A stretch of 28,090 nucleotides of DNA from a virus: IMG/VR virus record IMGVR_UViG_3300027513_000041, positions 1 through 28,090 of that record, one strand, 5' to 3'. Positions within the stretch are counted from its first letter, which is position 1. Every line of letters begins with the position of its first letter. This document shows, piece after piece, positions 3,949-20,509 of the stretch. A program made the position numbers and the translations under genes. A model generated the notes under the pieces. It searched no databases and was not told the origin of the DNA. It worked only from the letters and a program-made list of their open reading frames with translations.

Positions 3949-5462
3949 CCCTCGCCGGCCGATTGCGCGGTGCGTGGAACGCGTTGGCGGGAAAACCGCC
4001 GCGTCGGCGCATCCGCAATTCCGCCTTTCCGGCCGCCGAGCTCGGGCGCCTGACCTCGAGCTGGACGACGGATCCCGGCGCGGTCAACCGGTGGCTGCGC
4101 TACGAGCTGCGCACGCTCCGCGCGCGCTCCCGCATGCTGGCCCGCGGGGATGCCTACGGCGCGCGGTACGTCGCGGCCTGCGTGAACAACATCGCCGGGC
4201 CGACTCCGTTCGGACTGCAAGTCAAGGCGAAGTTCAAGGAAAACGGCCTACCGAACCAGTCCGCCAACGCGGCAATCGAGAACGCGTGGATCGATCGGTG
4301 CATGCCGGGCGCGCTGGACGTGACCGGGCGGCTTTCGATGAGCGAGCTGCACCGGTTGACCATTCGAACGCTCGCGCGCGACGGTGAGGCGCTGTGGCGC
4401 AAATACCAGGGCGGCGAGTGGGGCTTGCAAGGGCGCATCCAGGTGCTCGATGTGGATCGCCTGGACGAACAGAGAAATGAGAGCCTGCCAAACGGCTCGA
4501 TCAAGATGGGCGTCGAGCTCGACCGCTTCGCAAAGCCGATCGCCTATCACATCCTGCGCGAGCATCCCGGAGAGATCGGCGAATGGTCGCGCGGTCAAGA
4601 GCGAGCCTCCGAGCGGGTGCCTGCCGAGATGGTTCGGCATATCTTCGTTCCCGATTGGCCAGAACAGGTTCGCGGGATTCCTTGGATGCATGCCGCGATG
4701 TTGCGGCTGTGGAACCTCGGCGCCTTCGAAGAGGCGGCCGTGATCAATGCGCGCGTCGGCGCGTCCAAGATCGCGACGATCGAGACTCCGGATGGCGATG
4801 TGCCTGACGGGCTTGTCACCGGCACAGAATCCTCCGGCAACCTGCTCTCCGATATCGAGCCAGGGCAATACTGGACGCTCCCGACCGGATCCAAGCTCGG
4901 ATCGTTCGATCCGAAATTCCCTGATGAGAGCGTGGGACCGTTCATTCAAGCGTGCCTGCGTGGTGCGGCCGCGGCCGTGTCGATGTCCTATCACTCGTTT
5001 GCGAACGATCCCGGCGAAGTGAACTACTCGACCGCGCGGGTTGCGCTGCTCGATGAGCGCGACATGTGGTCGGCGCTGCAGCAGTGGTACATCGACCACG
5101 TCTGTCAGCCTGATTTCGTCGAATGGATGTCGGGAGCGATTATCGATGGCGCTTTGGCGCCGGCCTATTTCACGCACCGCAACTCGGTGCGCTGGCAGCC
5201 GAAGCGCTGGGCGTGGATCGATCCCGAGAAGGAAGTCAACGCCAAGAAAACCGCGCTGGAGATTCGCTTGACCTCGCGCACGCGTGAGGCGTCGGCGAAC
5301 GGCGAGGACATTGAGGAAATTTTCGACGAACAAGCCTATGAGCAGGATTTGGCGAAGGCAAAGGGCATCGTGCTCGAGCCGGCCAAGCCTGCGAGCGGGG
5401 CCAACGGGGGCGCCACAAATGGACGGCCTACCGCTGATCAAGGCACAGAATCTAACGCGTGA
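3945..5462 (+). CDS. Portal protein, lambda gpB type
   Basis: Forms the dodecameric ring at the capsid vertex through which DNA enters and leaves. The 505 residues match the lambda-type portal family (Phage_portal_2) in length and features: a basic N-terminus, the RARSRMLARGDAYGARYVAACVNNIAG segment near residue 60-86 (given here only as its key residues R-x-R near 60 and NN-x-x-G near 82), VLDVDRLDEQRN, and HIFVPDWPEQVRGIPWMHAA. The AYFTHRNSVRWQPKRWAWIDP segment (key residues W and P) lies near the C-terminus before the KE-rich helical end. The start overlaps the previous stop (ATGA), and the end overlaps the protease-capsid gene by 44 bases. No SppA-type gpC protease follows, unlike lambda. 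Confidence 0.93.
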   Translation: MTLAGRLRGAWNALAGKPPRRRIRNSAFPAAELGRLTSSWTTDPGAVNRWLRYELRTLRARSRMLARGDAYGARYVAACVNNIAGPTPFGLQVKAKFKENGLPNQSANAAIENAWIDRCMPGALDVTGRLSMSELHRLTIRTLARDGEALWRKYQGGEWGLQGRIQVLDVDRLDEQRNESLPNGSIKMGVELDRFAKPIAYHILREHPGEIGEWSRGQERASERVPAEMVRHIFVPDWPEQVRGIPWMHAAMLRLWNLGAFEEAAVINARVGASKIATIETPDGDVPDGLVTGTESSGNLLSDIEPGQYWTLPTGSKLGSFDPKFPDESVGPFIQACLRGAAAAVSMSYHSFANDPGEVNYSTARVALLDERDMWSALQQWYIDHVCQPDFVEWMSGAIIDGALAPAYFTHRNSVRWQPKRWAWIDPEKEVNAKKTALEIRLTSRTREASANGEDIEEIFDEQAYEQDLAKAKGIVLEPAKPASGANGGATNGRPTADQGTESNA

Positions 5463-7488
5463 AGCGCTCTTAAGGGAGATCCGCGGCAAGACGCAACACG
5501 CGGAGGCTTCGATTGATCGTGCCGGCATCGACCGCGAGGCGCGCACCGCCAAGCTCGCCTGGTGCTCGGAAGATCCGTACGAGCGCTGGTGGGGCATCGA
5601 GGTTCTCGACACATCGCCCAAGGCGGTGCGCATGGGCCGGTTGCGCAATGGCGCCGCGCTCCTGCTGGGCCACGATACTGACAAGCAAATCGGGGTGATC
5701 GAGTCGGCATCGCTCGACAAAGACAAGAAGGGACGCGCACTCGCGCGCTTCAGCAGATCAGCTCTCGGTGAGGAGATTTTCGCCGATGTGACTGACGGCA
5801 TCCGGCAGAAGGTTTCGGTCGGATACCGGATTCACGACCTAGTCCTCGTCAAGAAAGAGGGCGACGTCTCAACCTACCGCGTCACCGATTGGGAACCGTT
5901 CGAGCTTTCGATCGTGTCGGTTCCTGCGGATGACACCGTCGGCGTTGGCCGAGGTCTCAGCGGTCAGCCTGAAAAGGCTAAGGCAATGAAGGAAGAGCAA
6001 AGCCGGGCCGCGGAAAGCTCGGAAACCAATCCGGATCCGTCGGCGGACGTAGCAGCACAGCATCAGCGCTCCGAAGCATCGGTTTCGCAATCGGTGCAAG
6101 AGCAAATCGCAGAACGCAATCGCATCATCCTCGAAATTGGCGATCAGTGGAAAGCGTACGGCGGGCAGCAACTCGCTCGCGACGCGATCGGCAATGCCAA
6201 GATGACGGTCGACGCGTTCCGCAAGATCGTCCTTGATGAAGTCTCCAAAAAGCAGGCGGCAATCGCGCCGACCGAAACCGGGCGCCTGGCGGCCGACGAG
6301 CAGCATCCCGAGTTCCAGCGCGGCGGAAACCCCGCCGGGTACGGAATGGGCGCTCGCGAGATGCTTGCGGCGACGTCACTTCGCGCCTTCCGCGGCATCG
6401 GCAAGATCATGCGAATGGAAGATCACGAAGTCGCGTATCGCGCCGGCATGTGGCTCATGGGCGCGGTGCACGGCAACGGCAAGGCGATGCGCTGGTGCAA
6501 AGAGCATGGCGTCAAGCTCCTGCAGGGCGATCGGAATCAGTTGTTTTACGATGAGCGGTCCATGACCGAAGGCGTTTTCACCTCCGCCGGCTGGCTGGTG
6601 CCCGTGGAGATGGAAGCCGCGATCATCGCGAACCGCGAGGAGTTCGGTGTTGCCCGGCGCATCTGCAACGTGATCCCGATGACCTCGGCGAGCACGAGCA
6701 TCCCGCGCATCACGTCGGACACAACCGCGTACTTCGTCGGTGAAGGCGCGAGTGCAACGCCATCAGACCCGGCCGGCGATCAGGTCACGCTGACGCTCAA
6801 GGACTTGATGGTGCACACCAACATCGGCAAGTCGACCGCGATGGATACGGTCGTCTCCCTTGCCGAGCTGGTGGCCCGCGAGCAGGCGCGCTCGTTCGCC
6901 GTGAAGGAAGACCAATGCCTGGTCATCGGCGATGGGACCAGCACCTACGGCGGCATGATGGGCGTCAAGACGCTGCTCGACAATACCGCATACAGCGCGG
7001 GCAAGGTCGACGCAGTCTCGGGTCACGATCTGATGTCCGAGATCGATATCACCGACATCACGAGCCTGATCGCGGTCCTGCCGGTTTATGCCCGCGCGGG
7101 TTCGAGGTTCCTGGTGTCCGGTGTGTTCGATGCGCTGGTCTTCGGGCGGGTGAAGTTGAACGCAGGCGGCAACACGGTGCAAACCGTGCAGGGTCGGATC
7201 GTCGAAGGTGAATTCGCTGGATTCCCGATCACGCTCGCGCACCACATGCCGACGTCGACCTCGACCATCAACGATTCAACGATGGCAATCCTCGGAAACT
7301 TCAACCTCGGCGTCGCGTTTGGCAGCGGCTCGGGGATGATGATGACCGTCGATCCGTACACGCTCGCGCACCAGAATCTCACTCGCATCATCACGAGCGA
7401 GCGTATCGACATCAATCCTCATGGCGTCGCCAAGAGCACGACCGCCGGCCAGCAAGGGCCGATCGTCGGACTCTGGGGCAACACCTAA
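5419..7488 (+). CDS. Prohead protease fused to HK97-fold major capsid protein
   Basis: One 689-residue polyprotein holding the S78-type maturation protease and the shell protein. ATG 5419 is preceded by a GGGGG stretch about nine bases upstream and the protein begins MDGLPLIKAQ; longer in-frame starts would run deep into the portal gene. Protease residues can be placed as H85 (LLLGHD), S133 (QKVSVGYR) and E162 (WEPFELSIVSVPAD). Residues about 190-320 are charged and helical and probably form the scaffolding delta segment. From about 330 the capsid part follows: GVFTSAGWLVP, the N-arm/E-loop region and a C-terminal P-domain, ending VGLWGNT. Self-cleavage between the parts is expected. Such fusions are known; here the gene is paired with lambda-type portal and terminase. 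Confidence 0.92.
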   Translation: MDGLPLIKAQNLTREALLREIRGKTQHAEASIDRAGIDREARTAKLAWCSEDPYERWWGIEVLDTSPKAVRMGRLRNGAALLLGHDTDKQIGVIESASLDKDKKGRALARFSRSALGEEIFADVTDGIRQKVSVGYRIHDLVLVKKEGDVSTYRVTDWEPFELSIVSVPADDTVGVGRGLSGQPEKAKAMKEEQSRAAESSETNPDPSADVAAQHQRSEASVSQSVQEQIAERNRIILEIGDQWKAYGGQQLARDAIGNAKMTVDAFRKIVLDEVSKKQAAIAPTETGRLAADEQHPEFQRGGNPAGYGMGAREMLAATSLRAFRGIGKIMRMEDHEVAYRAGMWLMGAVHGNGKAMRWCKEHGVKLLQGDRNQLFYDERSMTEGVFTSAGWLVPVEMEAAIIANREEFGVARRICNVIPMTSASTSIPRITSDTTAYFVGEGASATPSDPAGDQVTLTLKDLMVHTNIGKSTAMDTVVSLAELVAREQARSFAVKEDQCLVIGDGTSTYGGMMGVKTLLDNTAYSAGKVDAVSGHDLMSEIDITDITSLIAVLPVYARAGSRFLVSGVFDALVFGRVKLNAGGNTVQTVQGRIVEGEFAGFPITLAHHMPTSTSTINDSTMAILGNFNLGVAFGSGSGMMMTVDPYTLAHQNLTRIITSERIDINPHGVAKSTTAGQQGPIVGLWGNT

Positions 7489-7553: not shown

Positions 7554-7994
7554 ATGTTTCCTCAAAGCAAGGCAGTCGTGTTCCTGCAAACCACGCAGGA
7601 AACAAACGGCGGAACGATCACGAGTCAGAACCTCGATTGTCAGGGGTTCGATTTCGTGACGATCGATGTCGTGCAGACGACCTCGAACAATGTCACCAAC
7701 AACCCTAGCACGTTGAAGCTGCAGCAATCCGATACCACGGATGCAACCAACTTCGCGGATCTGTCGGGCGCTGTTGGCGATACGGATTTCACGATCCCGC
7801 AGGTCGGCACCAACACGTCCACGATCAGCTCGTACAAGTTCAACGTCGATATGCGTCACCGCAAGCGCTACCTGCGCCTGCTCGTGACGCCGATCACGAC
7901 GCAGAGCTTCACTGCGGTCGCGAATCTGTTCCGGGGCGAGCGTTCTGCGTCGAATGCGACGGACGCGAACGTTTCGGTACTCGTGGGTTTGTAA
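7554..7994 (+). CDS. Putative capsid decoration protein
   Basis: A 146-residue, beta-rich protein with many Asn, Thr and Ser (TTSNNVTNNPSTLKLQQSD). ATG 7554 has TAGGAGA about ten bases upstream. The motif MRHRKRYLRLLVTP near residues 100-113 is like a strand seen in phage decoration and head-surface proteins. It directly follows the capsid gene, the usual place for a decoration protein, and directly precedes the methyltransferase-glycosyltransferase gene. There is no signal peptide or membrane segment. Function is inferred from position and composition; a minor structural protein is the alternative. Confidence 0.6.
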   Translation: MFPQSKAVVFLQTTQETNGGTITSQNLDCQGFDFVTIDVVQTTSNNVTNNPSTLKLQQSDTTDATNFADLSGAVGDTDFTIPQVGTNTSTISSYKFNVDMRHRKRYLRLLVTPITTQSFTAVANLFRGERSASNATDANVSVLVGL

Positions 7995-8079
7995 AAAGGA
8001 TCCTCCTCCACGCAAGTGGATTTCGCCGGCGCGCTTTCGGGTGCGTCGGCATTTTCTGAAACCTGCACCAAGGTGCCAA

Positions 8080-9231
8080 GTGAAATTGAATTTAGGATCT
8101 GGCGACATCGTGATTCCAGGCTACGAAAACCTCGATGCTAAATTTGGAAGTGAGATCTTCCCGCTCCCCTATGACGACGGGACGATTGAGGAGATCCGCG
8201 CGAGTCATGTGCTGGAACACTTTCCACACGGACAGACCGAGCGTGTCCTCAAAGACTGGGTGCGTGCGCTCATGCCAGGCGGCTTACTCAAAGTGGCCGT
8301 GCCGGATTTCCCAAGCCTGATTCAGAAGTATCAGTCGCGCGAGCAATACCCGACGCATGCCGTCCTGATGGGCGGGCAGTCGGATGAGCGAGATTTCCAC
8401 AAGGCCATTTTCGATTTCGAGCAGCTCGCGCACTTGATGCGCAACGCTGGTCTCGTAGCGATCAACGCGTGGGATTCAGAGGTTGATGACTGCGCGAAAT
8501 TGCCGATCAGCCTAAACCTCTGTGGCCACAAGCGCCCGGAGAAGTGGCCGAACGTCTCGGCCATTATGAGCGTGCCGCGGCTTGGTTTCATGGACAACTT
8601 CTTCTGCGCATTCGAGGCGCTGAACCCGCTGCGCATCAATCTGCGCAAGGTGACCGGCGCATTCTGGGGGCAATGCCTCGAGCGCGGTTTCGAGATGATC
8701 GTCGGTGACGATGCACCGGAATTCATTCTCACGCTGGATTACGACACGGTCTTCACGCGCAACGACGTCGAGGACATGCTCGCGCTGATGATCGCGAATC
8801 CGGGCGTGGACGCACTAGCGCCAGTTCAGGCATCCCGCAGCAAGAACGCGCCGCTCTTTGTTGTCGCCGGCGCGGACGGGAAAGGTGTTGCGATCGTGCG
8901 CAGCGACTACTTCGATGCGCCATGCGCTGATGTCGTGACGGCGAACTTCGGCTGCACGCTGATTCGCGCGAGTGCACTCAAAGATCTGCCGAAGCCATGG
9001 TTCCATTCAAAGCCAGATGCGCAAGGGTCCTGGCACAACGGGCACGTCGACGACGACATCTTCTTCTGGCATCGCTTCAAGGAAGCCGGCAAGCGACTGT
9101 GTATCGCCTCACGCGTGGCCGTCGGACACATGGAGTTGATGGTCCGATGGCCCGATGCACAGATGCAAGCGATTCACCAGCATCACAGCGAATGGTCTGA
9201 GCTCGGAAAGCCCGAGGGCGTATGGCACTGA
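8080..9231 (+). CDS. SAM methyltransferase-glycosyltransferase fusion
   Basis: A 383-residue two-domain enzyme. GTG 8080 has AAGG six bases upstream and gives the usual methyltransferase N-terminus (M)KLNLGSG; an upstream GTG at 8041 lacks a ribosome site. Residues 1-150 form a Rossmann methyltransferase: motif I LNLGSG at 3-8, acidic D19, ASHVLEHF at 41-48 and LMPGGLLKVAVPD near 64-76. From about 165 a GT-A-like glycosyltransferase follows: SAIMSVPR, FILTLDYDT with the metal-binding DxD at 220-222, a GCTLIRAS strand, and HVDDDIFFWHRF near 322-333. It lies between the decoration and connector genes, so modification of a virion protein is possible. Substrate and donor sugar cannot be read from sequence. 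Host surface or DNA modification remain alternatives. Confidence 0.8.
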   Translation: MKLNLGSGDIVIPGYENLDAKFGSEIFPLPYDDGTIEEIRASHVLEHFPHGQTERVLKDWVRALMPGGLLKVAVPDFPSLIQKYQSREQYPTHAVLMGGQSDERDFHKAIFDFEQLAHLMRNAGLVAINAWDSEVDDCAKLPISLNLCGHKRPEKWPNVSAIMSVPRLGFMDNFFCAFEALNPLRINLRKVTGAFWGQCLERGFEMIVGDDAPEFILTLDYDTVFTRNDVEDMLALMIANPGVDALAPVQASRSKNAPLFVVAGADGKGVAIVRSDYFDAPCADVVTANFGCTLIRASALKDLPKPWFHSKPDAQGSWHNGHVDDDIFFWHRFKEAGKRLCIASRVAVGHMELMVRWPDAQMQAIHQHHSEWSELGKPEGVWH

Positions 9232-9734: not shown

Positions 9735-10151
9735 ATGTTGCTGAAGCGAATCTATGACAAAGAGAAGCTGGATCACATCGAACTTCGCCACACCGGCACG
9801 AGCGCGGAGCAGAATTTTTCCCGCCGGCTGGTCGAGGGGGCGGTGTCCGAGGGATGGATGACGCTATCCAGAGGCAAGATCATCCTGCACGCGAAGCCCG
9901 AGGATCTCACCTACACGATCAAGCGCGGCCCTGGTCACTACTGTCTCCACTGCGGCGAGAAGATCGAGAGCGATGCGCTCGGCGCGGCAGCTCGAGCGCA
10001 CATGGCCGAGAAGCATGACGGCATGGAATCGCCCGACAGGCATTGGCCGGCCGGTTACATGGTGACGCACGCATTCGAGTGCGTTCTCGACGACAAGCAG
10101 CACGAGAAGTTCAAGGCGCTGCCGATGGGTGCAAAGAAAGGGAGCAAGTAG
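9735..10151 (+). CDS. Hypothetical protein with a CCHH zinc-finger motif
   Basis: A 138-residue protein with a strong ribosome site, AAGGAG, six bases before ATG 9735. A single zinc-finger-like site is formed by C70, C73, H89 and H94 (CLHC and HMAEKH), a spacing like a C2H2 finger. The N-terminal half has YTIKRGPGHY leading into the finger; the C-terminus is basic (MGAKKGSK). In a head-tail gene cluster this is more likely a structural zinc site than a DNA regulator. I do not recognise the family. Confidence 0.65.
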   Translation: MLLKRIYDKEKLDHIELRHTGTSAEQNFSRRLVEGAVSEGWMTLSRGKIILHAKPEDLTYTIKRGPGHYCLHCGEKIESDALGAAARAHMAEKHDGMESPDRHWPAGYMVTHAFECVLDDKQHEKFKALPMGAKKGSK

Positions 10152-10153
10152 CC

Positions 10154-10624
10154 ATGGCGAATATTGTCTTCAACATTTCCTTGGGTCGCGCGGCCGAGTT
10201 TTACAACAGGGTCGACTCAAATGACCCGTCAGCATCCGAGCTCGTCGTTTCCGTGCTCGCGACCTCGGGGATCGAGTCCGACGCCGTGCTGAAGGACAAG
10301 GACACGTTCTCGGCTGTGGTTTCCGGTGCCACGAACGAAGTCACGAATTCGGGCTATGCGGCGAAGGTGCTCGGCGATGCCGATCTGACCGCGTTCGCGC
10401 CGGACGACACGAACGATCGAGTCGACCTCGACATTCCTGATCAGACCTGGACCGCCGTTGCTGCGGGTGATGGTTGGAACGATATCGTCATCAGCTACGA
10501 CCCAGTCGGATCGCAGACGACATCGGACATGATTCCGATGACGCTGCATGATTTTGTGGTCACGCCCGACGGAAGTGACATTACAGCTCAGATTGCCAGC
10601 GCCGGGTTTTTCAGGGCGAGCTAG
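10154..10624 (+). CDS. Conserved phage structural protein (156 aa)
   Basis: ATG 10154 lies three bases after the previous stop with GGGAGC upstream. The protein begins MANIVFNISLGRAAEFYNRV, a start that recurs in phage head/tail clusters, and ends with a strand containing DGSDITAQ and GFFRAS. The middle is helical, then beta-rich with DDTNDRVDLDIPDQTW. This type of protein is widespread in siphophages and usually placed near the head-tail junction, but its role is unknown to me. It ends eight bases before the HNH gene. Confidence 0.65.
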   Translation: MANIVFNISLGRAAEFYNRVDSNDPSASELVVSVLATSGIESDAVLKDKDTFSAVVSGATNEVTNSGYAAKVLGDADLTAFAPDDTNDRVDLDIPDQTWTAVAAGDGWNDIVISYDPVGSQTTSDMIPMTLHDFVVTPDGSDITAQIASAGFFRAS

Positions 10625-10631
10625 GACACCT

Positions 10632-11114
10632 ATGAATCTGTGCATTGAGTGCGACACCGAGATCAGCGCCAAGGCGACTCGCTGTCGTAAGTGTAACTGT
10701 CGACTTGTTCAACCGTTGGCGCCTGTTAGCAAGCCCTTGGGGCCGAGAGCGCTAACGGTCGCAGAACGACAAGCGAAATGGCGCGTAGAGCATCCAGGCC
10801 GCGCTCGTGGCGCGAATCGTCGCGCGAAGTCATCCATGCGCAAGCGCGTCGCCGAATACAAGGCCGAGAGAGGTTGCGAGGACTGCGGCATAACGGACGC
10901 GCGTTGCCTTGATTTGCACCATCGCGACGGCGAAGAAAAGGTCATGGCCGTCAGCGAGATGATGTACCGATCAAGTTGGAAGAAGGTCCAATCGGAAATG
11001 GACAAGTGCCGGGTGCTCTGCGCGAACTGCCATCGCATCGAGCACGCAGACGACTGCGAAGGCTCGGATATCACGGCTCAGAGTTGTCCGAGCGTCATAA
11101 CCGCACAGGGGTGA
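10632..11114 (+). CDS. HNH homing-type endonuclease
   Basis: A 160-residue nuclease. An N-terminal zinc ribbon has C4, C7, C18 and C21. A basic linker (WRVEHPGRARGANRR) is followed by a second zinc pair C82/C85 with C130/C133. The HNH core is LDLHH (H96, H97), N132, H134 and H138. Such free-standing genes cut related phage genomes and spread by repair. It is inserted between conserved structural genes. The C-terminal tail after H138 is unusual and contains GSDITAQ, the same seven residues as the end of the upstream protein. Composition is slightly less GC-rich than its neighbours. No intron core is evident around it. Confidence 0.88.
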   Translation: MNLCIECDTEISAKATRCRKCNCRLVQPLAPVSKPLGPRALTVAERQAKWRVEHPGRARGANRRAKSSMRKRVAEYKAERGCEDCGITDARCLDLHHRDGEEKVMAVSEMMYRSSWKKVQSEMDKCRVLCANCHRIEHADDCEGSDITAQSCPSVITAQG

Positions 11115-11441: not shown

Positions 11442-12692
11442 GTGGCGCAGTCTGTCGCTATCGCAACTGGCGCGCTTCAAGGAGTTGCGGGCAGTACCGA
11501 CTTCACCGTTTCTGGATTCGGCACGCCTGCTGCTGCAATCGTTGTGTTTGGCGAAGCAAATTCGGGGTCGAACCCACAGGTCGATGGCGGGATGGGGATC
11601 GGCTTTTGGGACGGAACCACACAGAACGTCGCCCGCAACAACAACGTCGATGGGGGCGCAACGTCTGATGGGCTGCGAGCGCAGGTGAGCGGACTCATTG
11701 CGTATAGCTCGACCCTCGGCGCTGAATACACGATCAGCAATATCACTGACGGCGTGCGTATTACGCTGACATCCGGCGCTTCAAGCAGGGATCGATTTGC
11801 GACGGTCATGCTGTTCGCCGGGGTGTCTGCCAAAGCGGGCATGTTTACGCCGAACGCCACGCAGGACAGCACAGCGAGTTCCGCCTCGCTGGGGTTTGCC
11901 CCGAAGATCGTGTTCGTTACATGCGTAGGACTCGGTGGTGACGGGTCAGGAACGGACCATTCGATTCTGACGTTCGGCTTCGCCGATGCCACGATGAATC
12001 GGGGCATTTTGCGTTCATCGGAGCTTGCGATCTCGGACGAGAGTGCGACTATTTGGGCATCAGAAACACGCTGTTGCGGACAGTTGCTTGCGGGCGGACT
12101 GACGTGGGCGGGCGAGATCACGACGCTTGGAGCAGACACGTTCACCATGACCACGCGCGACGGTGGATCTGGCGGGGATACCGTCTTTTACCTTGCTCTT
12201 GGCGGCGCGGACTGTTCGTTTGATGTTGGCACGCTTACGACGCCGACCGCAACGGGTGATTCTGTCAACGCAACAGACACCTCCCCCGACGCTTTGCTGT
12301 TGATGCTCAGTACAGCAACTGGCACGACTGCGCACACGGATTCCGGTGCGAACGGTTCAATGGTTGGCATGGCGACCGACGCGAACGAATACGCCGTCGG
12401 GTATCAGGTTGAGGATGGCGCTGCGACGATGAATTGCAACAGCGCCTATTCATCGGCAGCGTGCCTTAACCTGGATTCATCGTCCGCTGGCTCGCTCACG
12501 CATATGTGTGATGCCACGGTCACGCTCAACTCAAACGACTTCACGCTGAACTACTCCGCGGTCGATGCGACGGCGCGTAAGGGTTGGTGGGTTGCGTTTG
12601 GCCCGCCTGCAGCACCAGTGCCGGCCCCGGAAGTGTTGCGCTCGACACAAGCAAGTCTCAGTTGGGAAAGGTGGAGCACATGGACGAGATAG
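11442..12692 (+). CDS. Beta-rich putative virion surface protein (416 aa)
   Basis: Starts at GTG 11442, one base after the previous stop. The 416 residues are rich in Gly, Ser, Thr and Ala with many short predicted strands (TDFTVSGFGTPAAAIVVFGEA; here key residues G and V alternating), with no signal peptide or membrane segment. Two similar-looking halves may be present: the segments TPAAAIVVFGEANSG near 28 and SLGFAPKIVFVTCVG near 150 share a strand pattern, suggesting repeated beta-sandwiches. The Pro/Ala-rich linker PPAAPVPAP precedes a short tail. It probably belongs to head fibres or tail decoration. I cannot name a family. Confidence 0.6.
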   Translation: MAQSVAIATGALQGVAGSTDFTVSGFGTPAAAIVVFGEANSGSNPQVDGGMGIGFWDGTTQNVARNNNVDGGATSDGLRAQVSGLIAYSSTLGAEYTISNITDGVRITLTSGASSRDRFATVMLFAGVSAKAGMFTPNATQDSTASSASLGFAPKIVFVTCVGLGGDGSGTDHSILTFGFADATMNRGILRSSELAISDESATIWASETRCCGQLLAGGLTWAGEITTLGADTFTMTTRDGGSGGDTVFYLALGGADCSFDVGTLTTPTATGDSVNATDTSPDALLLMLSTATGTTAHTDSGANGSMVGMATDANEYAVGYQVEDGAATMNCNSAYSSAACLNLDSSSAGSLTHMCDATVTLNSNDFTLNYSAVDATARKGWWVAFGPPAAPVPAPEVLRSTQASLSWERWSTWTR

Positions 12693-13395: not shown

Positions 13396-14118
13396 ATGGC
13401 GATTGCCTACAAGTCCGCGGGAGCTGGCGCATCGACTGAAACGAGCGCCGCTGCACTCTCGCCTGCTTGTCCGGCGACCGTCGATGCGGGCGACGTACTA
13501 ATCGCTCACGTTTTTTGGGAAGGAACGACGAGTGCCCCGAGCACTCCATCAGGATGGGAGCCTTTGACGGGTCCACACGTCATCGAGACGACGATCGCGC
13601 GTCACTGGATATTCGGGAAGATCGCGGACGGCAGCGAAGACGCAGCGGCAGTCGCGTTCGGTTCGCCTGCTGTCACGACGCAGCGCGCAGCGCGCGTCTA
13701 CAGTTTCAGCGGATGGATCGACGGTGCGATCTCGGAACTGTGTGGAGGATTCTCGCATCAGTCGCACGCGACGGACCCGCAGATGCCGAGCGTGACGACT
13801 CCGCGCGCTGAAGCGCTCGCAGTCGCTTTCGCTGCGCAGAACGACGACAACGCGCACGCGAGCGCGACGGGAGAATCCGGGGGCGATTGGACGGAAGCAG
13901 TCGCGGAGTACACCGTCGCGCTCACTCCTGGTTTGACGATCTCTCTGCAAACCTGCACGCCAACAGCGAACCCTGGAACTGTGTCGGGCGGATCAATTTC
14001 GACGACCAACGACCCTTGCGGCGTGATCGGCTTCTACATTCAGGATCGACTCGGACTGCCGAACGTCGTTGCGGGTCCGCGTGCGATCGTCCGTCCGATG
14101 AATAGGTGGCATTCGTGA
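13396..14118 (+). CDS. Putative structural protein of phage jelly-roll type (240 aa)
   Basis: A 240-residue protein starting at ATG 13396, four bases after the previous gene. The pattern PATVDAGDVLIAHVFWEGTT, then TPSGWEPL, then strands ARHWIFGKIADG and AARVYSFSGW recurs in phage proteins thought to be surface sandwiches. The C-terminal segment holds a SLQTCTPTANPGTVSGGS strand pair and the final VVAGPRAIVRPMNRWHS. It overlaps the repeat gene by GTGA, so both are probably made together and may form one appendage. Family name not known to me. Confidence 0.6.
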   Translation: MAIAYKSAGAGASTETSAAALSPACPATVDAGDVLIAHVFWEGTTSAPSTPSGWEPLTGPHVIETTIARHWIFGKIADGSEDAAAVAFGSPAVTTQRAARVYSFSGWIDGAISELCGGFSHQSHATDPQMPSVTTPRAEALAVAFAAQNDDNAHASATGESGGDWTEAVAEYTVALTPGLTISLQTCTPTANPGTVSGGSISTTNDPCGVIGFYIQDRLGLPNVVAGPRAIVRPMNRWHS

Positions 14119-15677
14119 GCATCTATTCCAGATACACGCCGCGCTCGTACGGTTGGCCTGAACGTCGTCAGGTTTCGCGCGCTGTCTACGGTCTCACGCC
14201 GACGGCGGCGCTAACCGCAACCGTCGAGCAGGTCACAGAAACAGATCTCGCGCAGTCGATTGCGGTCGCACCGAAGATTCGGCTGGTCGGTCAGGTCACC
14301 GAGACCGATGTCGCGCAGGCCATCACGCCTCTCAAGACCCGTAGCGTCGGGCAGGTTTCCGAGACAGACCTCGCCCAAGCAATAACAGCGCGTAAGACTC
14401 AAACGATCACGCAGGTCACGGAAACCGACCTCGCGCAAGCGATTACGTGGTCACCGAAGGCTCGCCTGGTTGCGCAGGCGAATGAAACAGATCTCGCGCA
14501 GGCGATCACTTCCTCGAAGGTGCGCTCGATCGGGCTTGTCAGTGAGACCGATCTTGCTCAAGCGATCACATGGGCGCCGAAGCATCGTCTAGTCGGGCTC
14601 GCGACCGAGACTGACGCAGCGCAAGCGCTGACCGCAGTCAAGTCCCGAACGCTCACGCAGTCTGCAGAGACGGACGCAGCGCAGGCAATCACGGCGCGGC
14701 GGACGCTTGCAATCGGGCTCTGCTCCGAGACGGACCTGGCGCAGGCGATATCGGTCAGCGTGGCCAACGCGCTTGGAGCCTGCACAGAAACGGACGCCGC
14801 GCAGGCCATCACCGCGCACAAGACGCGGGCGATTGCTCAGTCCTCAGAAACAGATGCCGCGCAGGGCGTCACGGCCCGAAAAGCCTATGCGCTCGGTCAG
14901 GCATCGGAAACAGATGCGGCTCAAGCGTTCACAGCACGCAAGACCAACGCGCTTGCACAGGCTTCGGAGACAGATGCTGCGCAAGCCATCACGCGCGGCG
15001 CGGCGATCGTCCTGCTCGACCAAGCGCAAGAGACCGACTCGGCTCAGTCGATCACCGCTCGGAAGACGAAGCAGATCGGACAAACAACCGAGACCGACGC
15101 CGCGCAGGCGATGACTGCGCGCAAGACTGCAGCCGTGGCGCAGGCGACGGAGACGGATCTCGCCCAAGGCATGACGGCGCTCAAGCGGAGCTCCGTCGCC
15201 CAGGCATCCGAGACTGACACCGCACAGGCCATAACGGCACGCAAGACTCTCGCCATCGGGCAACCGACCGAGACCGATCTCGCCCAAGGGATCACCGTGG
15301 TCATCTCCCATGTGATCCTGCTCAATCAGTCGTTCGAGACTGATGCATCGCAAGCGATCACTTGGACGCAGCGCCGGTTGCTGCAACAGGTCATCGAGAC
15401 CGACGTCGCCCAGCTCATCAGCGTGCTCAAGCTCCGCTCGGTCGGTCAGGTGCTCGAGGCCGATCTCGCGCAGGCGTTCGCGGTGAGCAAGAGCATCAGC
15501 GTCGCGCAGGCGATTGAAACGGACATCGCGCAAGAGATTGCGGCCACTGGCGGGAGCTTCCTCATCCCGTTGTCGCATGTGCTCTACGCGAAACGCGGGT
15601 CCCGCATGCATGTCGCGGCCAAGGCATCCCGAACGCATGTCGTCGCCAAGGCGTCCCGATTGTTGAGGCCACATTAA
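14115..15677 (+). CDS. ETDxAQ tandem-repeat protein, putative fibre component
   Basis: A 520-residue protein. GTG 14115 overlaps the previous stop and has AGGTGG five bases upstream; a GTG at 14106 is less likely. After a 36-residue leader (SIYSRYTPRSYGWPERR), residues 37-477 hold 22 near-identical units of about 20 residues, core (T/S)ETD-x-AQ-x-I-T followed by a basic segment such as ARKTxAIGQ. Three or four units carry W and 1-2 extra residues. The tail ends in two copies of a HVxAKASR motif. Such regular short repeats suit a fibrous or solenoid element. It follows a likely surface protein and precedes a CBM-like protein. Similar repeats occur in phage and bacterial proteins but, to my knowledge, their function is not established. 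Confidence 0.75.
   Translation: MSIYSRYTPRSYGWPERRQVSRAVYGLTPTAALTATVEQVTETDLAQSIAVAPKIRLVGQVTETDVAQAITPLKTRSVGQVSETDLAQAITARKTQTITQVTETDLAQAITWSPKARLVAQANETDLAQAITSSKVRSIGLVSETDLAQAITWAPKHRLVGLATETDAAQALTAVKSRTLTQSAETDAAQAITARRTLAIGLCSETDLAQAISVSVANALGACTETDAAQAITAHKTRAIAQSSETDAAQGVTARKAYALGQASETDAAQAFTARKTNALAQASETDAAQAITRGAAIVLLDQAQETDSAQSITARKTKQIGQTTETDAAQAMTARKTAAVAQATETDLAQGMTALKRSSVAQASETDTAQAITARKTLAIGQPTETDLAQGITVVISHVILLNQSFETDASQAITWTQRRLLQQVIETDVAQLISVLKLRSVGQVLEADLAQAFAVSKSISVAQAIETDIAQEIAATGGSFLIPLSHVLYAKRGSRMHVAAKASRTHVVAKASRLLRPH
14223..15545 (+). repeat. 22-unit coding tandem repeat, period about 60 bp
   Basis: The region encodes 22 copies of the ETDxAQ unit. Most are exactly 60 bases, with a few of 63-66. 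DNA copies differ mainly at third positions and at the variable residues, so the protein core is kept more strictly than the DNA. The first and last units are the most divergent. This suggests expansion by unequal exchange followed by selection on the core residues. Confidence 0.85.
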
Positions 15678-16180
15678 TGCGCGGCGAATTTGTCTGGAAC
15701 GAGCAGCAGCAGATATTCGAGATCGAAAAGGATCCCGACGAGGATGCGCCGTTTTCGATTCATTGGTATGACGCACTCCGCGGCGCAGATCGTTACTGGA
15801 CGCCACGCTCCTACTTTGTCCCTGGCGACACCGTCACGCCGCCGCGGGAGGCCATCAACGGACACCGGTATCGCTGCACGATCGGCGGACGCACGGGCGG
15901 ATCGGCACCTGTTTGGCCGACCACTGGAACCAACACGGTCACGGACGGCGGTGTCACCTGGACGCGCATCGGGCTTGAAGACCGGATCGCGACGAGCACC
16001 TGGACCGTGGAAACCGGAATCGACGACGGCACGGACTCGATCGATGCCACGGAATGCGTCACGACGCTGCGGCTATCTGGCGGTACGCTCGGACGGGGCT
16101 ACATCGTGACCAATGCGATCGTCACCGATGCGGGATACGACTTCAATCAGCGCTTTCGCGTGCTGATCAGGCAGAACTAG
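15677..16180 (+). CDS. Putative carbohydrate-binding-like tail/head protein (167 aa)
   Basis: ATG 15677 overlaps the stop of the repeat gene (TAATG), so the two are coupled. The middle part has the pattern YWTPRSYFVPGDTV, then GHRYRCTIGGRTGGSAPVWP (20 residues) and DGGVTWTRIG, which resembles small aromatic carbohydrate-binding modules often found on phage fibres. The C-terminal 60 residues form an additional beta-rich part (TLRLSGGTLGRGYIVTNAIV). Binding to host glycans is plausible. The family match is by pattern only. Confidence 0.6.
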   Translation: MRGEFVWNEQQQIFEIEKDPDEDAPFSIHWYDALRGADRYWTPRSYFVPGDTVTPPREAINGHRYRCTIGGRTGGSAPVWPTTGTNTVTDGGVTWTRIGLEDRIATSTWTVETGIDDGTDSIDATECVTTLRLSGGTLGRGYIVTNAIVTDAGYDFNQRFRVLIRQN

Positions 16181-16636
16181 ATGGCGCACGTTCGAAAACA
16201 GATCCGGGATGCCGTGTTGACGCTGATCACGAATCTCGCGTCGAGCGGCGGGCGGGCGTTCGCCGGGCGCGTGTCTCCGTATGCGGAGGACGAATTGCCG
16301 GCCGTGAACGTGCGCGTTGGTGACGAGACGATCACGCAGTCATCGATTCACTATCCCGCGGTTCTGCTGCGCGAGCTCGAGGTGTCGATCGAATCCGTCG
16401 TCAAGCTGACCGATCAAGCCGATGATGATCTCGACGCCATGGCGCTCGAGGTCGAGGGCGCCATCGCTGCCAGTTCGTCAACGGTCACGTTGAGCGGGTT
16501 GCTCAACTGCGCGCTGACGCCGACCGGTATCGTGGTCGAGCGCGAGGACCAGGGCGAGGTCCCGATAGGTCGCCTCACGCTTGCCTACAGGACGCAGTAC
16601 GAAGTGATGAACAACGCGGCGGACACGGCGCTATGA
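16181..16636 (+). CDS. Putative tail terminator protein
   Basis: A 151-residue protein directly after the previous stop. A helix (HVRKQIRDAVLTLITNL) is followed by strands (AFAGRVSPYAEDELPAVNVRV; key residues R, P, V) and a two-layer alpha/beta pattern with DQADDDLDAMALEVEGAIAA. This arrangement, with RE-x-E-V-x-I in the middle, is typical of tail terminator proteins (gpU-like), which cap the tail tube and join it to the head. It is placed just before the tail tube gene, as expected. Minor tail protein of another type is the alternative. Confidence 0.7.
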   Translation: MAHVRKQIRDAVLTLITNLASSGGRAFAGRVSPYAEDELPAVNVRVGDETITQSSIHYPAVLLRELEVSIESVVKLTDQADDDLDAMALEVEGAIAASSSTVTLSGLLNCALTPTGIVVEREDQGEVPIGRLTLAYRTQYEVMNNAADTAL

Positions 16637-18143: not shown

Positions 18144-20509
18144 TGGCACAACCGAAACTAGAACTGACGGCAGTCGACCAGACGCGAGCGGCGTTCGCTT
18201 CCGTTGCAAAGAACTTGGACCAGCTCACGGTCAGGGTTCAGGCAACGGGCGCGCGCATCAAGGGCATCCTCGGTGCGAGCTTCGCCGGGATCTCGGGTGC
18301 GGTAGCGTTCACGGCGCTGACCGAGACGGCAAAGGAAGCAGAGCAGGCGAGCGCACGCGTCGCCGCGGTTCTGCGCGCGACCGGCCACGCCGCCGGCATT
18401 GCACAGAAGGAGATCGACGAGCTCGCCGAGTCGCTCGCCGAAACGACCCAGTTCGACGATGAGAGCATCCGCAACGCTGCATCGCAGTTGCTTGTGTTCA
18501 AGAATGTGCAGGGCGACACGTTCCGCGAGGCGTTGAAGCTGTCGGCCGACGTGGCCGCATTCTTTGGCGAGGACTTGCCAAGCGCTGCAGCCAAGCTCGG
18601 GCGCTCGCTCGAAGACCCAGAGACGGCTTTCGGGCTGTTGCGTCGAGCGGGCATTCTGCTCACGGAGCAGCAGAAGGACATGATCAAGGAGATGGCCGAG
18701 GCCGGCAACGTGGCCGGCGCTCAGGCCGTCATCATCGACAAGCTGAAGGGCGCGTTCGAAGGCACCGCCGCCGCGATCAACACCGGTATGACCAAGGCCA
18801 CGGCCGACGCGAAGAAAGCGCTCGATGAATTCCTCGAGTCGCTCGGGCGCAGCGAAGCCGTTGGCGGGAGCTTCAAGAGAGGGCTGGAGGGCGTGAAAAC
18901 GCTCCTCGTGCAAATGAAGGCGGCCGTGGAGGACGGACCCGCGGCGGTGCGCAACCTCGGATCGAGCTTGATTGGTTTCAGCGCCGATCTGCTCGGGAAA
19001 GTAAACCCTGCGCTCGGCGTGACGCTCGAGCTCATGTCGAAACTCGCCAAGGCCGAGGACGACAGGAAGCGCCGCTCTAGCGGCATCATTGGCGGCGGCC
19101 CGCTCGACCCCAAAGTCATCGAGGCTGCAGCGGCCGAACAGAAAGCCGCGCAGGAACGAGACGCTGCCTACGTCAAAGCGCGCGAGGCGGCAAAGAAGGC
19201 TGCCGAGGAGGCCAAGAAGGCATCGGCCGAGGCGCAGCGCGCGGCGAAGGCGGACCAGGAGCGGTTCACCAATGCGAAGCTGTCGTTAGAAGAGCAGGCC
19301 GCGGCGGTCGAAGACATCACCGAGTTTGAGAAGACCCGAATCGCGATTGAGCAAGGCAAGCTCGGGAAGACGGCGCAGGCGAACCGCGATCAACTGCTGG
19401 CGCTGGCCGCGAATATCGATCTGCTCCGCGATGAGAAGAAGGTCCGCGAGGAAATCGAGCGCGTCATCGAGGCACAGAACCGCGAAGACGCAGAGCGGAG
19501 CAGGACGGAGTCAGAACGCCGGGCGGCCGTGCGAGATTCGATCGTCGCCCTCATCGACCCGCTGGAGCAGTACCGCAAGAAGCTGGTCGCGGTACGCGAG
19601 GCTGCCGAGAAGGGCGACATCACGCCGGAGCAGCAACTCGAGGCCGAGTTCAAGATTCAGGAGTTGATCGACGAGGCGCTCAAGCTCGAAGCGCAAGTCG
19701 ATAAGACCAAGTCGGTAGCCGAGGAGCTCGGCCTGACATTCGTATCGGCATTCGAGGACGCGGTCGTTGAGGGCGAGAAATTCCGCGACGTCGTCAGGGC
19801 GCTCGAGAAAGACATCATCCGGGTCTTGTCCCGCAAGTTCGTGACCGAGCCGTTGGCCAACAGCGCGGGCAAGTTCGCCGAAGAGCTCACCAAGGGCGGC
19901 AGTGGCGACTTCGTCAGCGACCTACTGAAAAAGACCGGTGAATTTTTCTCCGGCCTCTTCCGGGCAGAGGGCGGCCCGGTTGCGGCGGGATCTCCCTACA
20001 TCGTCGGGGAGCGCGGCCCAGAGCTCTTCGTCCCGAAGGCGAGCGGCCATATCGTACCGAACACAGATCTGCTCACGAGCATCGCGTCCAGCACCAAGGC
20101 GCTGACCTCGATGTTCCGAGCTGAAGGCGGGCCCGTCGCCGCAAACTCCCCTTATATCGTTGGCGAGAAAGGGCCGGAGCTGTTTGTCCCGAAGGCGAGC
20201 GGGAACATCGTACCGAATAGCTCGCTTCTGACGAGCATCGCCTCGAGCGCTAAGGCGCTCACGGCCATGTTCCGCGCCACCGGCGGGCCGGTGACTGCGG
20301 GTGCTCCGTACATCGTCGGCGAAGAAGGCCCTGAGTTATTCGTGCCGGCCGCCAGTGGGAACGTCACGCCGACCCGAGAAACCCGGAGCGGCGGCAACCA
20401 CATCAACATCACGATCAATGTTCCGCAAGGGATCCGCCACGACACGGCGGCGCAAGTCGCCGCATCCGTCGGCCGCGCGGTGCGAAGCGCGATGCGAAAG
20501 AACGGCTGA
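18143..20509 (+). CDS. Tape measure protein
   Basis: The 788-residue protein sets tail length and is ejected into the cell. GTG 18143 overlaps the chaperone stop (TAGTG) with GGAG eight bases upstream. The N-terminal 300 residues are helical with an Ala/Gly-rich stretch (ILGASFAGISGAVAFTALTE, 39-58). A long charged coiled coil runs from about 333 to 470 and again to 600. The C-terminus has three copies of a 52-residue unit starting at residues 606, 658 and 710, with GGPV, PYIVGE and GPELFVP motifs. By the usual rule of about 0.15 nm per residue, the tail would be about 118 nm. Three copies instead of the usual one is unusual. Confidence 0.93.
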   Translation: MAQPKLELTAVDQTRAAFASVAKNLDQLTVRVQATGARIKGILGASFAGISGAVAFTALTETAKEAEQASARVAAVLRATGHAAGIAQKEIDELAESLAETTQFDDESIRNAASQLLVFKNVQGDTFREALKLSADVAAFFGEDLPSAAAKLGRSLEDPETAFGLLRRAGILLTEQQKDMIKEMAEAGNVAGAQAVIIDKLKGAFEGTAAAINTGMTKATADAKKALDEFLESLGRSEAVGGSFKRGLEGVKTLLVQMKAAVEDGPAAVRNLGSSLIGFSADLLGKVNPALGVTLELMSKLAKAEDDRKRRSSGIIGGGPLDPKVIEAAAAEQKAAQERDAAYVKAREAAKKAAEEAKKASAEAQRAAKADQERFTNAKLSLEEQAAAVEDITEFEKTRIAIEQGKLGKTAQANRDQLLALAANIDLLRDEKKVREEIERVIEAQNREDAERSRTESERRAAVRDSIVALIDPLEQYRKKLVAVREAAEKGDITPEQQLEAEFKIQELIDEALKLEAQVDKTKSVAEELGLTFVSAFEDAVVEGEKFRDVVRALEKDIIRVLSRKFVTEPLANSAGKFAEELTKGGSGDFVSDLLKKTGEFFSGLFRAEGGPVAAGSPYIVGERGPELFVPKASGHIVPNTDLLTSIASSTKALTSMFRAEGGPVAANSPYIVGEKGPELFVPKASGNIVPNSSLLTSIASSAKALTAMFRATGGPVTAGAPYIVGEEGPELFVPAASGNVTPTRETRSGGNHINITINVPQGIRHDTAAQVAASVGRAVRSAMRKNG
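19958..20392 (+). repeat. Triplicated GGPV-PYIVGE-GPELFVP unit in the tape measure
   Basis: Units start at 19958, 20114 and 20270, exactly 156 bases (52 residues) apart. The first two are complete, including the LLTSIASS-x-KALT-x-MFRA joint; the third is shortened after the GN-x-TP part. The pattern GGPV-x-G-x-PYIVGE-x-GPELFVP is a known C-terminal element of tape measure proteins, normally single. DNA identity between units is moderate, so the duplications are not very recent. Confidence 0.85.

Follow-up and report, generated by a model that had tools for sequence, protein, structure and literature searches.

A 20-residue ETD-repeat protein, probably the shaft of a phage appendage, and its partner gene p157

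The window analysed here, a virus record of 28,090 bases whose late operon is of siphovirus type, encodes a protein of 22 ETD repeats that probably serves as the shaft of a fibre on the virion, whether at the neck, on the tail or as a whisker; a transferable cassette would encode this appendage, including a second protein, p157. Appendages determine what a phage attaches to, and most of the genes for them in environmental phages lack annotation. The ETD repeat would mark one appendage class in many uncultured phages; it is linked to a partner gene whose product has a recognisable arm fold, and it suggests how such appendages swap their heads, shaft and plug. Furthermore, PHROG_14065 and PHROG_26662, families of unassigned function, gain a predicted role that can be tested in culturable phages, Hiyaa and Keanu among them. 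The features of the repeat gene and the gene that follows it are:

14106..15677, plus strand: ETD-repeat protein gene, an open frame with a GTG start encoding 523 aa, with a PHROG_14065 match; proposed fibre shaft
14208..15545, plus strand: array of 22 units of 20-22 residues each, xKxRx[VLI]GQAxETDxAQx[ILV]T
15546..15674, plus strand: C-terminal tail of short sub-repeats (SRMHVAAKA, SRTHVVAKA, SRLLRPH); proposed docking strand for the next gene's product
15677..16180, plus strand: Gp77-type fibre-tail adaptor, with PF23148 in the C-terminal domain and an N-terminal stretch resembling PHROG 'head decoration'

Counting each unit from ten residues before its E to nine after it (E-10 to E+9) places the array at residues 35-480, or 14208-15545, and agrees with the initial annotation, which had put 22 repeats in one protein at 14223-15545. 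The 523-residue protein contains 22 matches to E[TA]D..Q, with ETD in 21 units and EAD in unit 21, spaced mostly by 20 residues, otherwise by 21 and once by 22. The description of a strictly kept (T/S)ETD-x-AQ needs slight loosening: the motif is retained and its Q is invariant, but E can also follow A, N, Q, F, I or L, one unit has EAD, and unit 19 has S in place of the A before Q. A pattern of three ExDxA units set exactly 20 aa apart has 10 matches in the window, against none in 100 shuffles that preserved dinucleotides, so the array is not a product of chance. Over the 12-residue core of the unit, the window copies share 65% identity in DNA and 65% in protein, and core residues shared between units use different codons in 56% of cases. 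The 21 ETD triplets are encoded by 11 different 9-mers; such mixed codons at conserved residues indicate that selection acts on the protein, and the units point to old repeats under protein-level selection rather than a recent duplication of DNA.

The only family that matches the repeat protein is the function-less PHROG_14065 (E 3.6e-32, 112.6 bits, three stretches, the best at residues 266-492). A Pfam search of the window protein gave nothing above cut-off (best CBS, 16.5 bits against 24), the repeat parts of its relatives all fell below the Pfam cut-off, and an NCBIfam scan of 68 segments returned scattered weak matches and no repeat family. The repeat-profile search proposed with the initial annotation therefore yielded no characterised repeat family in Pfam or NCBIfam, and the statement that no established function was known for the repeat is correct as far as the searched libraries show. 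The names that Pfam suggests for the repeats (CBS, COMP and TRF) lie below cut-off and are chance matches. A weak PDB profile match (7qlr, the tail fibre of phage CDHS1, E 0.07) is an alignment of alanine-rich repeats and was set aside. A literature search on the ETD motif or on the fibre of the carrier phages found no paper. As such, the 20-residue repeat, its breadth and its near-obligate p157 partner are undescribed as far as the searched libraries and literature show.

Further loci were retrieved with a three-unit DNA pattern (ExDxA) and with single-protein queries. The pattern matches at least 120 IMG/VR stretches. Most matches in GTDB genomes are chance, and about a dozen loci there have real arrays, among them loci in isolates of Actinomadura, Acrocarpospora, Rhodococcus rhodnii, Frankia and Sedimenticola; prophages carrying the repeat are found in Actinomycetota and Proteobacteria. 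Isolated phages with a relative of the repeat protein are few (five Hiyaavirus records), and two Streptomyces plasmid records also match it. The consensus from 134 distinct proteins and 1563 units is x-K-T-R-A-[VLI]-G-Q-A-T-E-T-D-T-A-Q-A-[ILV]-T-A, from which a general motif xK-x-R-x-[VLI]-GQA-x-ETD-x-AQ-x-[ILV]-T was derived, and the median protein has 11 units, with up to 45. An array of this kind could be a flexible low-complexity linker that has no regular fold and is kept for its length only, as the dominance of small and polar residues and the low AlphaFold confidence described below would allow. This is very improbable in view of the tight register, with 1220 of about 1480 spacings in the 134 proteins being exactly 20, of the strong conservation of several positions over the 1563 units, and of the free variation of synonymous codons. 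Near relatives at 90-96% DNA identity also align gapless; the comparison of copy number between close relatives that had been proposed was possible for six pairs, all gapless, and says little, several of them being contig-truncated or identical.

A shaft of regular units is the preferred reading, and AlphaFold2 modelling of seven units (68-row alignment) gave an all-beta structure with about two strands per unit at low confidence (pLDDT 56, pTM 0.47). Foldseek with this model reached E 0.25 at best; curli, FapC and ice-binding proteins, which appear at that value or worse, are meaningless as relatives. The structure prediction suggested initially thus gave beta strands only, at a confidence too low to speak for or against a monomeric solenoid. 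So poor a model could mean that the units fold properly only with other chains, or simply that the prediction is weak. In the proposed mechanism the repeat protein would be a stalk, probably an oligomer of beta-rich units. Triple beta-spiral shafts of adenovirus and reovirus are likewise built of short, regular repeats in which small and hydrophobic residues alternate, placed between an anchor and a binding head; their unit length and consensus differ from those of the ETD repeats, and no structural match was obtained.

The initial annotation had also raised the possibility that ETD binds metal. The repeats would then be a binding surface, for instance a metal-stabilised beta-solenoid in which a ladder of ETD motifs binds ions or a ligand, and the length of the array would provide avidity and not reach. 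Such a role would be consistent with beta strands being the only predicted structure and with E and D being the most conserved positions of the unit, although the frequencies of E, D and A across loci are inflated because most loci were retrieved with ExDxA. It is nevertheless quite unlikely, as the model is untrustworthy and Foldseek finds no fold for it, and as the GGxGxDxxx signature of RTX calcium beta-rolls is absent from the sequence (no GGxGxD motif in the window units, whose period is 20 residues). Moreover, lectin-type heads often occur as distinct parts beside the repeats, which then need not bind themselves.

The reading as a fibre shaft draws on a partner gene, which in the window lies upstream together with a further small ORF:

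10154..10624, plus strand: p157, 156 aa (157 codons), phrog_26662 (function-less); proposed virion-side fibre arm with a tail wing arm fold
9738..10151, plus strand: second frequent partner ORF, 137 aa, with relatives in 28 repeat loci, window included

The pairing of p157 with the repeat gene is near-obligate and new here. Among the 68 repeat loci with at least 3 kb of upstream sequence, 63 have p157 near the repeat gene on the same strand. A reciprocal IMG/VR search with p157 alone found repeats downstream in 31 of the 36 loci with 5 kb available, the repeat-found and p157-found locus sets sharing some contigs, and a shuffled-ORF control for array detection gave 0 false arrays in 1694. The pair appears to move between distantly related phages, since the capsid, terminator and tail-tube proteins of the window are recognised in few loci (the major capsid and major tail proteins in only 9 repeat loci each, the terminator in 3). 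p157 is much better conserved than the repeat gene, with 34-86% identity to the window copy by alignment, and one IMG/VR scan found 263 relatives; it serves well as a marker of the cassette. Only six GenBank phage records contain it, namely the five repeat carriers and Pseudanabaena phage Pam4. The distance within the pair varies: in the window, 3.5 kb with several ORFs separates p157 from the repeat gene, and in a Streptomyces plasmid p157 lies 12 bp before it. In the Streptomyces plasmid L336 (NZ_CP107756.1, 4005-6361), probably a phage-plasmid, p157, the repeat gene and a Gp77-type gene are consecutive and an integrase lies about 3.4 kb further. The ORF at 9738-10151, which has no PHROG match, is a third frequent member of the cassette.

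The AlphaFold2 model of p157 (77 sequences) has high confidence (pLDDT 96.6, pTM 0.90). Searches by sequence found no match in the PDB, no Pfam family reached its cut-off (among fibre-related names, Gp80 of GP4 came closest, with E 0.027 in 3 members), and Foldseek of the model against the PDB gave no significant match. VIA-align puts structural proteins of phages or archaeal viruses in all of its best 11 rows, with the T4 baseplate (Z 9.9) first and Bxb1 next (Z 8.9, 101 of 105 residues, rmsd 2.5 A); weight is placed on these two, as rows with Z under 8 may reflect common arrangements. Lower rows include the Bas63 connector (6.6), the HFTV1 tail (6.5), at Z 5.1-5.3 A511 gp105, tail fibres of Agrobacterium phage 7-7-1 and the phi812 arm, and also phiKZ gp139; unrelated proteins reach Z 4.7 at most. 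The matched Bxb1 chain is gp31, the 'Tail wing arm' (PDB 9d93), on which the p157 model superposes with 20% identity. Similarly, the p157 HMM aligns to the last 50 residues of gp31, and a BFVD search with p157 returned uncharacterised phage proteins and weaker 'tail-collar fibre' entries. gp31 differs in having 106 aa and lacking the first approximately 35 residues of p157. Judged by the predicted model, p157 shares the tail wing arm fold with gp31 over most of the domain, a likeness of fold and not proof of position in the particle; p157 is probably a small arm attached to the virion.

Relatives of the repeat protein share a plan of an optional N-terminal or inserted head, the repeat array and a short C-terminal tail. 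Fibres whose heads can be exchanged are already known from phages. Pfam identifies LamG heads in the repeat chain of 12 of 83 scanned segments, and further heads are BNR, FG-GAP, CBM_4_9, pentaxin-like, Ig and beta-helix domains. Glycan-binding heads, for host or environmental glycans, would be fused at the N-terminus as in many relatives. The repeat chain of the window has no head, and its proposed heads are separate ORFs just upstream of the repeat gene that match no Pfam family:

13396..14118, plus strand: ORF directly upstream, 240 aa, beta-rich and head-type by eye; proposed separate fibre head
11442..12692, plus strand: ORF, 416 aa, with relatives that adjoin the repeat gene in L003, L051 and L113; proposed head domain

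The first has no family match in PHROG or Pfam and one relative, in the p157 locus L323. For the second, an iterated HMM finds its domain fused to repeats in L023, where direct BLASTP reaches only E 0.001; adjacency and fusion together hint, short of proof, that this ORF encodes the separate head in the window. The initial suggestion of a spacer or fibre shaft beside glycan-binding proteins is thus supported by the LamG, BNR, CBM and FG-GAP heads in the chains of relatives, by the fibre-arm fold of p157 and by the Gp77-type next gene. Other arrangements were also observed. The array is interrupted by or fused to a BNR propeller in L015 (4066-7053), occurs with an FG-GAP domain and a second, adjoining repeat gene in L016 (2-4553), and with the domain resembling ORF 11442-12692 in L023 (2-2134). 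Degenerate repeats are fused to proteins that by eye resemble siphovirus tail tips in L093 (7997-9403), L228 (4685-7999) and L256 (13552-17424).

At the other end, repeat proteins usually finish in a few short sub-repeats whose sequence differs by locus; in the window the tail region contains a 27-bp tandem repeat at 15600-15659. This tail may dock onto the protein encoded next, which is of Gp77 adaptor type in the window and can be a neck connector elsewhere. The next gene in the window passes the gathering score of PF23148, the family of Gp77 of podophage GP4 (39.2 bits against 27, residues 90-162), its N-terminal stretch matches phrog_20658 'head decoration' (E 8e-7), and it has no PDB match by sequence. 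Pfam applied to 73 next genes recognised 7 gp6-like connectors, 6 Gp77 (PF23148) and 4 BppU_N (PF10651) proteins, and about 19 next genes match PHROG head-tail adaptor families. Five proteins (window, L003, L015, L051 and L336) have an R.Y.V.AE.R-type tail; a small local Gp77 model finds four of their five next genes and Pfam the fifth, that of the window, so that tail type is associated with a Gp77-type next gene (Fisher P 8e-6, classes post hoc). Tails with Arg/Pro/Ser motifs (L035, L059, L084, L090, L094) tend by eye to precede gp6-like connectors, the formal class being weak (P 0.02). Pfam assigns only 6 of 73 next genes to Gp77, so docking is proposed from a small number of loci and from classes drawn up post hoc.

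The position of the gene bears on where the protein would be found in the particle. From the head side, the window encodes a terminase, a head-tail joining protein, the portal, a protease/major-capsid fusion, a methyltransferase-like ORF and small ORFs before the repeat gene, followed by the Gp77-type gene, the tail terminator, the major tail protein, the tape measure, a GTA-like tail tip and the endolysin. The repeat gene lies in the late structural operon between the head genes and the tail terminator and beside the adaptor gene; its frame overlaps the upstream ORF by 13 nt and adjoins the downstream ORF at 15677. The cassette borders on the transition from neck to tail, which is marked by:

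16181..16636, plus strand: tail terminator (phrog_4204, E 2.4e-16)

Streptomyces phage Hiyaa has gp13 in the corresponding slot, between head genes and head-tail connectors, with the p157 homologue gp12 directly upstream. Hiyaa gp13, a 'minor tail protein' by annotation label only, and its counterparts in Keanu, Spocter and Galactica keep the 20-residue register of the window in degenerate form; unlike the window protein, gp13 has 1110 aa, a long N-terminal part and 6 units by profile with the ETD core mostly lost, at 22-26% identity. A place after the head genes, in the window as in Hiyaa, could mean that the repeat protein decorates the capsid, with head-surface fibres tethering the phage to mucus, extracellular polymer or other carbohydrate. 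The 'head decoration' resemblance in the first half of the next gene and the general carbohydrate-binding folds of the heads would suit this. It is unlikely, however, because the fold of p157 matches tail and baseplate arm proteins and because neck connectors or Gp77 fibre-tail adaptors are often the next genes. Moreover, p157 of Pam4 lies after the tape measure and baseplate genes, adjoining a 'polysaccharide lyase' and a tail-region protein with degenerate repeats (by eye). A neck, tail or whisker-type fibre is preferred, in which the repeat protein would be present in the virion as an oligomeric shaft, with its heads outwards, towards a receptor, and its C-terminus inwards. A wider proposal, held with slightly less than even confidence, is that p157 and the ETD-repeat protein make up a self-contained fibre cassette, not described before, which passes as a unit among unrelated tailed phages (of Actinomycetota, Proteobacteria and others); its shaft would have a new 20-residue fold, and both its glycan-binding heads and a C-terminal plug that fits the adaptor of the carrier virion would be exchangeable.

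Several other features of the structural block were observed. The major capsid protein appears to be fused to the head maturation protease (5284-7488), and this frame, as called from its first GTG, overlaps the end of the portal gene by 179 nt. The ORF after the capsid gene (7954-9231) has an N-terminal methyltransferase match and a C-terminal part that is glycosyltransferase-like by eye, and its product could modify virion glycans; Hiyaa has a methyltransferase gene in the equivalent slot. An HNH endonuclease, possibly a homing endonuclease, is encoded inside the structural block at 10548-11114, and the tape measure gene contains a 156-bp tandem repeat of 2.4 copies at 19970-20347.
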